DNA from: Spirochaetota bacterium
GTDB taxonomy: Bacteria > Spirochaetota > UBA4802 > UBA5550
NCBI GenBank assembly: GCA_003246895.1
Contig: QKCL01000066.1
Span: 1-64,000 of the forward strand
Direction of reading: 5' to 3'
DNA: 64,000 nt
Shown: piece after piece, positions 18,212 through 22,492 of the stretch
Layout: each line of letters begins with the position of its first letter
How positions within the stretch are numbered: position 1 is the first letter of the stretch
Notes under the pieces: generated by a model
Databases searched by the model: none
Told to the model about the DNA's origin: nothing
The model's input: only the letters and a program-made list of their open reading frames with translations
Made by a program: the position numbers and the translations under genes

Positions 18212-19912
18212 TTATTCCTCTGCCAGCCATGTTCTCAGAAGCTGTGCAACATCGTCCGGTCTTTCCCTTGCAAGCTGCAGTGCGCTCTCCTGAAGCTCAA
18301 GCCTTGCCCTTTCTTCCAGAGAAAGCTCAACATCGATGCCCTCCTCTTCAGCAGCTTTAAGAGCAGCCTCACGCATCCTCTGCTGTTCCAGGGCAAGCGC
18401 CTCTTCCCTGGCTCTTCTTCTTCTCTCGAATTCTTTCTGTATGGCTCTGAACAGGATAAATCCTACGAAAAGGGCCACAACGCCGATGAGTGCCGCAAGA
18501 AGCAGTTTCTTCATCTGTTCCTTTCTTCTGTATTCTTCACGCAGTGAATTCCAGTATTCACTTCTGTCGAACATAATATTTTCAACAGCCACCTGGTCGC
18601 CCCTGCCGTCGTCGAAATTTATGGCCTTTTTAACTATATTCTCAGCCTTTTTCAGATCCTCGGGAGCAAGCGTCTTCTGAATAGGTTTCTTTGCCGGATC
18701 AAGATCGTACTCACCGCTCTCAAGACGGGGAAGATCCTGAATGCCGTCAATGGCAATGGCAACAGAAACCTTAGTTATATCAAATGGATCACGCTTTATT
18801 TTCCTTGTAGTCTTGTTTACAGCATGATTTTTTATATTTTCCTGTTTGTTGTACTTAGCAAACTGATCATCGCTTGCCTTGTATCCTGGAGGTTTGTTCC
18901 CCTCTGTCCCGGATGGCCCCTCAGGATTAAAACCATGGCCCTGGAAATCCTCTTTTGTTGACTTCTCGGAAACGATTAGAGAATCCTGAATTTTTCTTTC
19001 GGAATATGGCGTTTTGGGATTGTCCGGAGTCATAATAATGGGAGTATGCTCAACCTGTTCCTCCTCCTTCTTGTCCCAGTTAAAGTCCATATTGAGCCTT
19101 ACAATCTGGATTCTGTCGGAGGTGTAGATTCTCTCAAGACCCTCACGGATATCCTTGAGCATCTTTACCCGGGCTTTCTCTTCTATTTTTCTTCGGTATT
19201 CGAGAATAGTATATTCTTTCTTTTCGTTCTCAAAATCATCGTCAAAGTTTGAAATAATTTTGCCGTATTCATCTGTAACAGTAACATCTTCAGGCTTGAG
19301 TCTGTTCCCAACAGCACGTGCAACAAGATATGTTATACCATTGATCTCTTTCTTGCTGAGTTTATCATATCCCGGAGCAAGATGTACTGTTACAGCAGCA
19401 GTATAAGGAACAGATTTGGTTGAATAGAGGCTGTCCTCGGACATGGCAATCTCTACAGATGCCTTGCTTATATTTGAAAGTGATTCAATATGCTTCTGTA
19501 TTTCACCCCGGAGAGCACGCATGTACTTGACATCGAGCTCCTTGTCGGTTTCAGTCCATTTGGAAATATCGAAAAGCTGAAACCCTGGAATTCCCTTTGG
19601 GAGGAGATTATCCTGCGCGAGTTTTGTTACGATTACTGCCCTGTCTTTGGGTTTTACAAGAATAGTTGAGGTACCGCTAGTCTCATAGTGATACCCCAAT
19701 TCATCCAGCTTCTTTGTAACAAGCCCGAAGTCACTGACGGAGAGTTCAGGGAAAAGCGCCACATTAGGTTCACTGCTTGAGACACTGAAAAGAAGAACAA
19801 AGGACACTACAACCACCCCGGCTACAACACCGATAATGATCTTCTTGGTTTTATCAAGTTTATTGAGAACTTCCTTAACCTGTCCTGCCAGTTTTTTAAA
19901 CAGATCTCCCAT
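18212..19912 (-). CDS. fliF: Flagellar MS-ring protein FliF
   Basis: 566 residues, normal length. One membrane helix lies near residues 26-44 (IIIGVVAGVVVVSFVLL) and a second near 475-495 (LLLAALIGVVALFVGFILF). The periplasmic ring-building domains between them have the YscJ/FliF motif LRGEIQKHIESLSNISKASVEIA. The C-terminal tail (ALQLARERPDDVAQLLRTWL) is the FliG-binding motif. FliF forms the MS-ring that nucleates motor assembly. GGAGG lies five bases before the ATG. Confidence 0.95.
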   Translation of the reverse strand: MGDLFKKLAGQVKEVLNKLDKTKKIIIGVVAGVVVVSFVLLFSVSSSEPNVALFPELSVSDFGLVTKKLDELGYHYETSGTSTILVKPKDRAVIVTKLAQDNLLPKGIPGFQLFDISKWTETDKELDVKYMRALRGEIQKHIESLSNISKASVEIAMSEDSLYSTKSVPYTAAVTVHLAPGYDKLSKKEINGITYLVARAVGNRLKPEDVTVTDEYGKIISNFDDDFENEKKEYTILEYRRKIEEKARVKMLKDIREGLERIYTSDRIQIVRLNMDFNWDKKEEEQVEHTPIIMTPDNPKTPYSERKIQDSLIVSEKSTKEDFQGHGFNPEGPSGTEGNKPPGYKASDDQFAKYNKQENIKNHAVNKTTRKIKRDPFDITKVSVAIAIDGIQDLPRLESGEYDLDPAKKPIQKTLAPEDLKKAENIVKKAINFDDGRGDQVAVENIMFDRSEYWNSLREEYRRKEQMKKLLLAALIGVVALFVGFILFRAIQKEFERRRRAREEALALEQQRMREAALKAAEEEGIDVELSLEERARLELQESALQLARERPDDVAQLLRTWLAEE

Positions 19913-20019
19913 GGGCCCCTCCGGTAAATGTGGACAAATCTAATGAGACATAATACAAATACAGGATATGGGCATAAATGTCAATTAATTTCCTAAAAAA
20001 ACACGCTTTTATACAAGAA

Positions 20020-20343
20020 TTATCTCAGATTCATCAGTTCGCGATAGGCATTAATGGCTCCGTCCCGTATGGCCTTTGTAAAGGCAAGGGAAATCTCGGC
20101 CTTCTGGTTGGCAATCATGACCTGGTGAATATCAACTTTTTCAGGCTCATAAATCATCTGCTGAACCTGATCCTGCGCATCAACCTGCAGGTCATTTACT
20201 TTTTTCACTGCATTATTAAGAACATCCGCAAAAGTGCCGGAGACATCGTCTCCCTCCCTCTTTACACGCGGCTCTCCGCTGTAATGAAGAGGATCAGAAA
20301 CATTCATTTTTACAATATGCCCGTTGGTAATTCCATCAATCAT
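20020..20343 (-). CDS. fliE: Flagellar hook-basal body protein FliE
   Basis: 107 residues, typical FliE size. The C-terminal helix pair (DVLNNAVKKVNDLQVDAQDQVQQ, then VMIANQKAEISLAFTKAIRDGAINAYRELM) matches the FliE family, including the terminal NAYREIMNM-like motif. FliE joins the MS-ring to the proximal rod. GGGGGTG precedes the ATG. It follows a small 47-codon ORF and flgC. Confidence 0.92.
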   Translation of the reverse strand: MIDGITNGHIVKMNVSDPLHYSGEPRVKREGDDVSGTFADVLNNAVKKVNDLQVDAQDQVQQMIYEPEKVDIHQVMIANQKAEISLAFTKAIRDGAINAYRELMNLR

Positions 20344-20361
20344 TTTACACCCCCTGGATCT

Positions 20362-20505
20362 TTAGAAGAATCTCAATTCAACCTTGGAATCAGCCAGAAA
20401 TTCATTCTTCAGTATGTTAAATTTTTCATCTTTTTTTATATTTATCTTTCCGGAAATTCCGTCAACAACCTTCATTTCTTCAACTGCACTGTATCCTCTG
20501 CACAT
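20362..20505 (-). CDS. Small 47-aa protein between flgC and fliE
   Basis: An ORF of 47 codons, with the ATG at 20505-20503 and TAA at 20364-20362. It begins MCRGYSAVEEMKVVDGISGK and ends KVELRFF. AAGGAGG lies 8 bases upstream of the ATG, an excellent Shine-Dalgarno. It occupies most of the otherwise unexplained 181-base gap in an operon whose other genes are closely packed, and ends 19 bases before the fliE start. It is charged, has no signal peptide or membrane helix, and no family is recognised. A rod or MS-ring assembly helper is conceivable from position, nothing more. Confidence 0.65.
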   Translation of the reverse strand: MCRGYSAVEEMKVVDGISGKINIKKDEKFNILKNEFLADSKVELRFF

Positions 20506-20524
20506 ATTAAAACCTCCTTATGGC

Positions 20525-20992
20525 TTAAGCGCCGTTTCTGCCTATTTCGAGAGCCTTGCTAAACATCGTCTTTGCATTGTTTACCATCATGACATTTGCT
20601 TCGTATGATCTCGATGCGGAGATCAGGTCTGTCATTTCTGTGACAACATTGACATTAGGCATTCTCACATAACCCTTTTCAGGACCTGTTGCGATTGCAT
20701 CGGGATGTGTGGGATCATAAACCAGCCTGAAAGGCTTTTTGTCATCCTCAATCTTTACAACCCGTACACCTTTGCCCTCGCCATGGTCTATTCTGTCCGG
20801 GACAAGCGGCGACTTGTAATTAGGCCTTATGTTCACGGGTGCAAAGATTGCCCTTTTACGCTTATAGGGCCCGTCCCCTTCGGGAGTACGCGTGGTTGTT
20901 GCATTTGCAATATTGCTGCTTATAAGGTCCATACGGAGCCTCTGGGCAGTAAGTCCTGTTGATGCTATATTAAAACTGTCGAACATTCCCAT
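20525..20992 (-). CDS. flgC: Flagellar proximal rod protein FlgC
   Basis: 155 residues, normal length. The N-terminus (MGMFDSFNIASTGLTAQRLRMDLISSNIANA) is the Flg_bb_rod motif; the C-terminus (SASRSYEANVMMVNNAKTMFSKALEIG) is the matching Flg_bbr_C motif. It polymerises into the proximal rod with FlgB and FlgF after export. AGGAGG lies six bases before the ATG. Confidence 0.95.
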   Translation of the reverse strand: MGMFDSFNIASTGLTAQRLRMDLISSNIANATTTRTPEGDGPYKRKRAIFAPVNIRPNYKSPLVPDRIDHGEGKGVRVVKIEDDKKPFRLVYDPTHPDAIATGPEKGYVRMPNVNVVTEMTDLISASRSYEANVMMVNNAKTMFSKALEIGRNGA

Positions 20993-21010: not shown

Positions 21011-21445
21011 CTATGATGCTCTCATGGCCATTTTAAGCATTTTATAGTTTTGATTCAGGGAGGAGACAAATGCATTGTACCGCATGAGGTTCTTTGATGC
21101 GTCCACCATCTCCTTCTCAATATCAACATTATTTCCGTCATTTCTGTAGGAGGTTGAATAATCAAGGTTAACTCTCGGCTGGACACCCTTAATATCTCTT
21201 TCAATGAAAAATGGAATGTGTTTTTTGTCTGTAAGTATTGAAGGGAGCTTCTGTGAATTCAGGGCATCTTCACGCTGATTAATGGCCCTTTTAAGTTCAC
21301 TTTCAAAATTAACTTCGCTCCTCTTGAAATGAGGGACGTCAACATTGGTTATGTTGTTTGTAATAACCTTTCTTCTGAGAGTCTCAACATCAAGAGACTT
21401 CTCCAGAAGGTAGTTTGTTGTCATCATACCGCTTCTGTCGAACAT
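21011..21445 (-). CDS. flgB: Flagellar proximal rod protein FlgB
   Basis: 144 residues. The FlgB N-terminal motif is present (LLEKSLDVETLRRKVITNNITNVDVPHFKRSEVNFE), and a C-terminal helix NLMRYNAFVSSLNQNYKMLKMAM pairs with it in the rod. It is the first gene of the operon. AAGGAG precedes the ATG. The 141 bases upstream are AT-rich and show no convincing sigma-28 or sigma-54 promoter. Confidence 0.94.
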   Translation of the reverse strand: MFDRSGMMTTNYLLEKSLDVETLRRKVITNNITNVDVPHFKRSEVNFESELKRAINQREDALNSQKLPSILTDKKHIPFFIERDIKGVQPRVNLDYSTSYRNDGNNVDIEKEMVDASKNLMRYNAFVSSLNQNYKMLKMAMRAS

Positions 21446-21586: not shown

Positions 21587-22492
21587 CTACCCTATTATCT
21601 GAATAGGGTCACCAGTAACTGCCTTCCCGCCGTAAATTACCTCAGCAAAGACCACCTCACCGGGCATTACGCAGTCACCGGCAAAAGGCTGTTTTTCTTC
21701 TCCGCTGCGGCAGGTTTTCCCTGTCTGGCTCAGTCTGAGAAAGACATTCCCAATTTTAAAAATGGTTCCCAAAGGAAGTGTATGAAAAGAAAGACCTCCT
21801 GTAGTGATATTTTCTCCGAAACTCCCCCATTCGAGGGAATGCCCAGGTTTTGCATCAACTTCAGCATAGCTCTCCCTGGCAAGAAGGCTCACCTGCCGTT
21901 TTCCGGAACCAAAATGTGCATCATTCTCTATCCCTTTCCCTGAAATAAAACTGCACTCCGAAACCGGTTTCTTAACAGACCCCTTCCCGGAACCGACATT
22001 GAGGCTCACGACCTCTCCTGCTGCCCCCTTATCCCTGACATAGTCTGACTTTCCGCCCTCCTTGTAGAGAAGGGATATATTCCCCATGGACATTCCGTAA
22101 CCTGTGGATTTGCACATGTCATATATTGAAAGGAGAGCAATCGACACAGCAGTGAGAGCCTCCATTTCCACACCGGTTTTTCCTTCGCACGTGACAACAG
22201 ATACAGCGTCAATTGAATCATCATTCACTGAAAACTGGATATCCACACCGCTCAGAAAAAGAGGATGACACATGGGAATTATGCGGGATGTTTCCTTTGC
22301 TGCCATAATCCCAGCAACCTGTGACACAGCAAGCACATCCCCCTTTTTCACCCTGCCGCCATTAATTAGCTCAATCAGTTCAGGAGACACGAAGATTCTC
22401 CCCGAGGCAAGAGCAAGCCGTTTTGAAACATTCTTGTCTCCAACATTTACCATACGAGCCCTGTTCTGTTCATTGAAATGTGTAAATTCCAT
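21587..22492 (-). CDS. moaC: MoaC-MOSC fusion, molybdenum cofactor protein
   Basis: 301 residues. Residues 1-155 are MoaC (cyclic pyranopterin monophosphate synthase): VSQVAGIMAAKETSRIIPMCHPL with MCHP at 74-77, and GKTGVEMEALTAVSIALLSIYDMCK. From ~158 to the end is a MOSC domain with SLLARESY, FGENITTGG, a Cys in QTGKTC and the GDCVMPGEVVFAEV motif. MoaC makes cPMP from the MoaA product in molybdopterin synthesis; MOSC domains bind or transfer sulfur or molybdopterin. The fusion should join early and late Moco steps. No other moa or moe genes are in the window. AGGCGG precedes the ATG. Confidence 0.88.
   Translation of the reverse strand: MEFTHFNEQNRARMVNVGDKNVSKRLALASGRIFVSPELIELINGGRVKKGDVLAVSQVAGIMAAKETSRIIPMCHPLFLSGVDIQFSVNDDSIDAVSVVTCEGKTGVEMEALTAVSIALLSIYDMCKSTGYGMSMGNISLLYKEGGKSDYVRDKGAAGEVVSLNVGSGKGSVKKPVSECSFISGKGIENDAHFGSGKRQVSLLARESYAEVDAKPGHSLEWGSFGENITTGGLSFHTLPLGTIFKIGNVFLRLSQTGKTCRSGEEKQPFAGDCVMPGEVVFAEVIYGGKAVTGDPIQIIG

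Follow-up and report, generated by a model that had tools for sequence, protein, structure and literature searches.

FliE is the first axial protein to be exported, and through it the rod is anchored on the MS ring (PMC8546590); genetic interactions connect it with FlgB, FlgC, FliF and FliR (PMC8546590), and six copies of FliE open the FliPQR gate (PMC12403130). Few parts of the flagellar gene set are as conserved as the flgB-flgC-fliE-fliF block. Small proteins encoded among flagellar genes are also known: FlgV (BB0268 of Borrelia, and Helicobacter FlgV), long unrecognised or misassigned, is an accessory of flagellar assembly (PMC11607428), and the same paper mentions the uncharacterised YjfB-like small proteins. 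We found no literature on a small protein encoded between flgC and fliE in spirochaetes; here we describe a microprotein gene in that position.

The window (the whole 64,000-nucleotide stretch analysed here) carries a flagellar operon whose genes all lie on the minus strand in the order flgB, flgC, microprotein ORF, fliE, fliF, fliG, fliH, fliI and fliJ. The first two, flgB (21011..21445; TIGR01396, E=3.8e-32) and flgC (20525..20992; TIGR01395, E=1.8e-50), encode proximal rod proteins, fliE (20020..20343; PF02049, E=2.8e-22) encodes the MS-ring/rod adaptor and fliF (18212..19912; TIGR00206, E=3.8e-89) the MS ring; fliG, fliH, fliI and fliJ were named by position and sequence, without a profile. 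Direct reading of the window gives a 47-codon ORF on the minus strand from 20505 to 20362, with the translation MCRGYSAVEEMKVVDGISGKINIKKDEKFNILKNEFLADSKVELRFF, and a Shine-Dalgarno sequence, AAGGAGG (20512..20518, minus strand), about 7 bases 5' of its ATG. Between the end of flgC at 20525 and the start of fliE at 20343 there are 181 bases, 144 of which the ORF takes up, and 18 bases separate its stop from the fliE ATG. The preliminary description of this DNA had already noted the ORF, its ribosome-binding site and its filling of most of the gap, all of which our reading bears out; it had left the strand (minus) unstated. Adjoining the flagellar operon is a 301-aa ORF (21587-22492, minus strand) in which MoaC (PF01967) and MOSC (PF03473) are fused.

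We found fliE in 57 related genomes and read the flgC-fliE gap wherever one contig held both genes; for wider searches the order set comprised 46 genomes (families f1-f7) and the phylum set 393, of which 347 lie outside the order. The order's named records among the loci fetched are MAGs only (for example HGW-Spirochaetae-5, RBG_13_51_14, RBG_16_49_21, UBA5763 and UBA5550), and we take them to correspond to the GTDB class/order UBA4802. UBA4802 has been termed an uncultured class of the Spirochaetota (PMC7382037). The microprotein gene is present, on the same strand and in the same position, in all 44 order genomes that have any of the gap assembled, and these span all seven families. In 39 of them the ORF is intact and 46-58 aa long; the other five copies are damaged or partial: that of G005 is partial at a contig end, the contig of G045 starts with the 3' end of the ORF, those of G016 and G041 are interrupted by runs of N, and that of G007 has an intact frame and motif with no in-frame ATG, GTG or TTG start ahead of the motif. 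The G007 frame can be followed back to an ATT shortly after a Shine-Dalgarno-like GGAAGG; this ATT may be a rare start codon, or the MAG may be in error here. In the remaining two order genomes (G032 and G043) the contigs start within fliF. Among the damaged or missing copies there is no clear gene loss, and the lack of conservation or broken frames in relatives that the preliminary description had named as evidence against a gene were not seen, the defects being one ATG-less MAG, assembly Ns and contig ends.

A profile built from the 39 intact members matched 43 of the 46 order genomes (all except G045, G032 and G043), with one strong match in each, always in the flgC-fliE gap. The same search gave no credible match in the 347 Spirochaetota genomes outside the order; the two marginal matches there have an E of 0.005, within a 563-residue open frame, and of 0.007, with two stops. 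The gap itself follows the same division. In the window's order it is always about 160-280 bases long and always holds the microprotein gene, whereas in other spirochaete orders, as in other phyla, it is mostly 2-75 bases long, and otherwise contains AT-rich or unrelated sequence that lacks the motif, some spirochaete gaps of 130-650 bases having no related ORF. The earlier remark that spirochaetes usually leave no room here is thus correct for most gaps of other orders; it does not cover their longer gaps or those of the window's own order. Two relatives outside the order (G058 and G046) have AT-rich gaps of about 156-167 bases that lack the microprotein ORF and are perhaps internal promoters. 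Distances among the microproteins track those of Rho, a non-flagellar species marker (rank correlation 0.56), as expected under vertical inheritance.

When the gap was resampled 20,000 times under a first-order Markov model, an ORF that began with ATG and ran to at least 47 codons arose in 1.3% of cases (0.07% with a Shine-Dalgarno sequence), so a single genome is insufficient to settle whether the frame is coding. Over 1024 codon comparisons in gapless within-genus pairs, pN/pS is 0.30 in the proposed frame and 1.15 and 1.29 in the other two; over independent pairs the value in the proposed frame is 0.28 (Fisher p=2e-22). Third codon positions are about twice as changeable as the others in the within-genus pairs (385 against 199 and 158). 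Ka/Ks across relatives, which the preliminary description had proposed as a check, was calculated within genera, where pairwise dN/dS of the microprotein lies between 0.06 and 0.35; this constraint is weaker than that on flgC and in several pairs of the same order as that on fliE. As judged from these comparisons, purifying selection acts on the family at the protein level. Selection was measured in relatives, all from genera other than the window's, and the window copy has as its own support an intact frame and homology to other members (best pairwise E=1.7e-5 to G013 and 2.0e-5 to G004), together with an E of 4.7e-12 in its own genome against the family profile, which includes the window copy.

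The supposition that the ORF arose by chance in spacer sequence can draw on the resampling frequency just given and on the fact that antisense frames are open in the window copy as well, but conservation across the order and selection specific to one frame already refute it, and of 39 relatives just 10 have an open frame opposite the microprotein; we give it next to no probability. In the window a 194-codon antisense frame (19978-20562, plus strand) spans both the microprotein gene and fliE and looks like a by-product. Because of the conservation, the frame-specific purifying selection, the fixed synteny and the unique location, the ORF is almost certainly a real protein-coding gene that had been missed, as the preliminary description supposed, and it represents a formerly unclassified family that is order-wide, order-specific and locked in position. 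It is a clean case of a conserved gene that lies outside all curated family models and is short enough to escape notice, and the family can now be defined by position, motif and 39 sequences.

The translation signals vary little among the 39 orthologues. An SD-like motif is present in 37 and the start lies 5-30 bases past the flgC stop in 38, while in 21 the end of the ORF overlaps the fliE start codon. From this start spacing, the SD-like motifs and the stop/start overlaps, the gene appears to be translationally woven into the operon.

Members of the family are short, soluble and mostly basic, and have no transmembrane segment (the top 19-residue Kyte-Doolittle mean of any member is 0.86). 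Alignment of all 39 gives a consensus of M-x-R-E, followed by the core E-[IV]-[NH]-[IVT]-[ST]-H-[DEN]-[LM]-S, a K/R-rich stretch and a variable linker, with a conserved [ST]-x-[IV]-[ED]-[LM]-R near the C-terminus; E4, H15 and S18 are almost invariant. The window copy deviates, with G at E4 and D at H15, and its core region (residues 10-19, EMKVVDGISG; 20449..20478, minus strand) is degenerate. It occupies the same position as the other copies and scores with the family profile, although the SH pair of the core is absent. The [ST]H pair is missing in only two of the 39 members, the window copy (EEMKVVDGIS) and that of G003 (ELNISDDMS), both of which have D in place of H.

No model in Pfam or NCBIfam matches the microprotein, the best match in a PDB profile search is at chance level (E=0.49) and Rfam finds no RNA family in the region, so the earlier statement that no family is recognised stands. 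AlphaFold2, run with two alignments (the second of 4 rows), predicted low-confidence single helices (pTM 0.19 and 0.29). FliE, FlgB and FlgC, the operon neighbours, show no profile similarity to the microprotein above shuffled controls. The N-termini of spirochaete FliE proteins carry a T-[HND]-P-L-H motif that is vaguely like the microprotein core; FliE proteins of this order (window 20020-20343, minus strand) and of many other spirochaetes have in common an N-terminal stretch, roughly G-[HN]-x-V-x-[ML]-x-[TS]-[TS]-[HND]-P-L-H-[YF], that precedes the conserved FliE core. A partial duplication of the FliE N-terminus, suggested by eye from TTHPLHY and SHDLS, was rejected, since hhalign gives it a probability of 0.3% and ungapped profile windows score at the shuffled level; nor does the microprotein belong to the FliE family (PF02049), having no Pfam match and no meaningful hhalign alignment. 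A likeness to the FlgB N-terminus was also discarded (p about 0.07-0.15 at best, and unmatched genome by genome).

A further resemblance is to the RNA-binding domain of Rho (PF07497), against which 3 of the 39 members, all from genus g3, score with a best E of 2.6e-5. The likeness pairs their residues 6-41 with profile positions 22-57 (EIHVSHNMSKRFQLKRGDRIWG); the best score is 24.4 bits against a curated cut-off of 27 and covers those positions only, of 73. Two of the g3 proteins also surface as sub-cut-off PF07497 matches in a whole-genome search, and a genuine Rho has its gene at another place in the genome. Rho itself has, in the first half of the domain, the RNA-contact strand with GFGFLR, which is absent from the likeness. 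We rejected identity with this domain, as profile-profile similarity is weak family-wide, other members align in a conflicting register and the scores are below the cut-off; the comparison suggests that the g3 resemblance to half of PF07497 is convergent or due to chance. FlgV was formerly taken to be the RNA chaperone Hfq (PMC11607428), a mix-up that counsels caution in deducing RNA binding from weak likeness.

What the protein does can be approached from its position. Since FliE is exported first and links the MS ring to the rod, an accessory encoded beside fliE would fit, and the location of the gene between flgC and fliE, and that alone, leads us to propose, at about even odds, an order-restricted accessory of early flagellar assembly that is made with FlgC and FliE and acts as an adaptor or export escort. 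Under this proposal the microprotein would be translated from its own Shine-Dalgarno sequence, in many species coupled to fliE, and would be produced together with FlgC and FliE, its site being the cytoplasm or the export gate/MS-ring base. The E-I-N-I-[ST]-H-x-L-S and [ST]-x-[IV]-E-[LM]-R segments, with the basic variable linker between them, would make contact with one flagellar partner or two, and the protein, an adaptor or escort and not an enzyme, would assist or time FliE export or the rod anchoring step. A rod or MS-ring assembly factor, the role suggested in the preliminary description, is plausible by position, but searches of homology, fold, motif and co-evolution found no tie of the microprotein to FliE, FlgB, FlgC or FliF. 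In mirror-tree comparisons its distances do not co-vary with those of FliE, and do so little with those of FlgB and FlgC, beyond shared phylogeny; an apparent signal with the FliE N-terminus (23 genomes) was gone once a species-tree marker was added.

Of the other roles considered, a translated regulatory peptide is rather unlikely. Such a peptide would set FliE output relative to FlgC, either through translational coupling or as a small regulator acting on RNA or the ribosome, and the coupling of its start and stop to both neighbours (including the frequent overlap with the fliE ATG), its basic middle segment and the Rho-like scores of the three g3 members would suit it. A pure coupling ORF, however, needs neither a conserved amino-acid motif nor a low pN/pS, the region has no RNA family, and the Rho likeness is confined to one genus, where it falls short of the cut-off and lacks the GFGFLR half, with another register elsewhere. 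We regard as quite unlikely a minor exported axial component, a rod-type subunit or plug that would be a flagellar type III substrate: two exported rod proteins do flank the gene, but similarity to FlgB, FlgC and FliE does not exceed controls, AlphaFold2 gave no confident rod-like fold, and strings like the FxxxPhi gate motif occur in 11 of the 39 members, no enrichment over the 13.2 expected after shuffling.

It is also quite unlikely that the gene is a non-flagellar passenger that sits in the operon by happenstance. Our searches matched it to no known family and found no independent functional tie to flagella, as might be so for a passenger, but in no genome of the seven families does it occur outside the flgC-fliE position, and over such divergence passenger genes usually relocate or are lost. 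A bolder form of the assembly-accessory proposal, in which the protein is specific to the order, essential to early assembly and substitutes for or alters a step at the FliE/export-gate stage, is a tentative proposal that we hold somewhat doubtful; if true, the microproteins would form a flagellar component family not described before, found throughout a single deep lineage of spirochaetes and nowhere else. Against an assembly role in either form, other spirochaetes make flagella without the microprotein; either fliE or fliF is kept in every order genome checked. That a new gene is fixed order-wide inside so conserved a block points to a difference in early rod assembly, or in the way it is controlled, in this lineage.

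Of the small flagellar proteins already described, the YjfB-like ones have a different position, and no Pfam match joins them to the microprotein. FlgV has two N-terminal transmembrane helices, is broadly distributed and is encoded near flhG, fapA and sigma28, whereas the microprotein has no such helices, is restricted to one order and is encoded between flgC and fliE; what it shares with FlgV is that each is a small protein of a flagellar operon that long went unrecognised.
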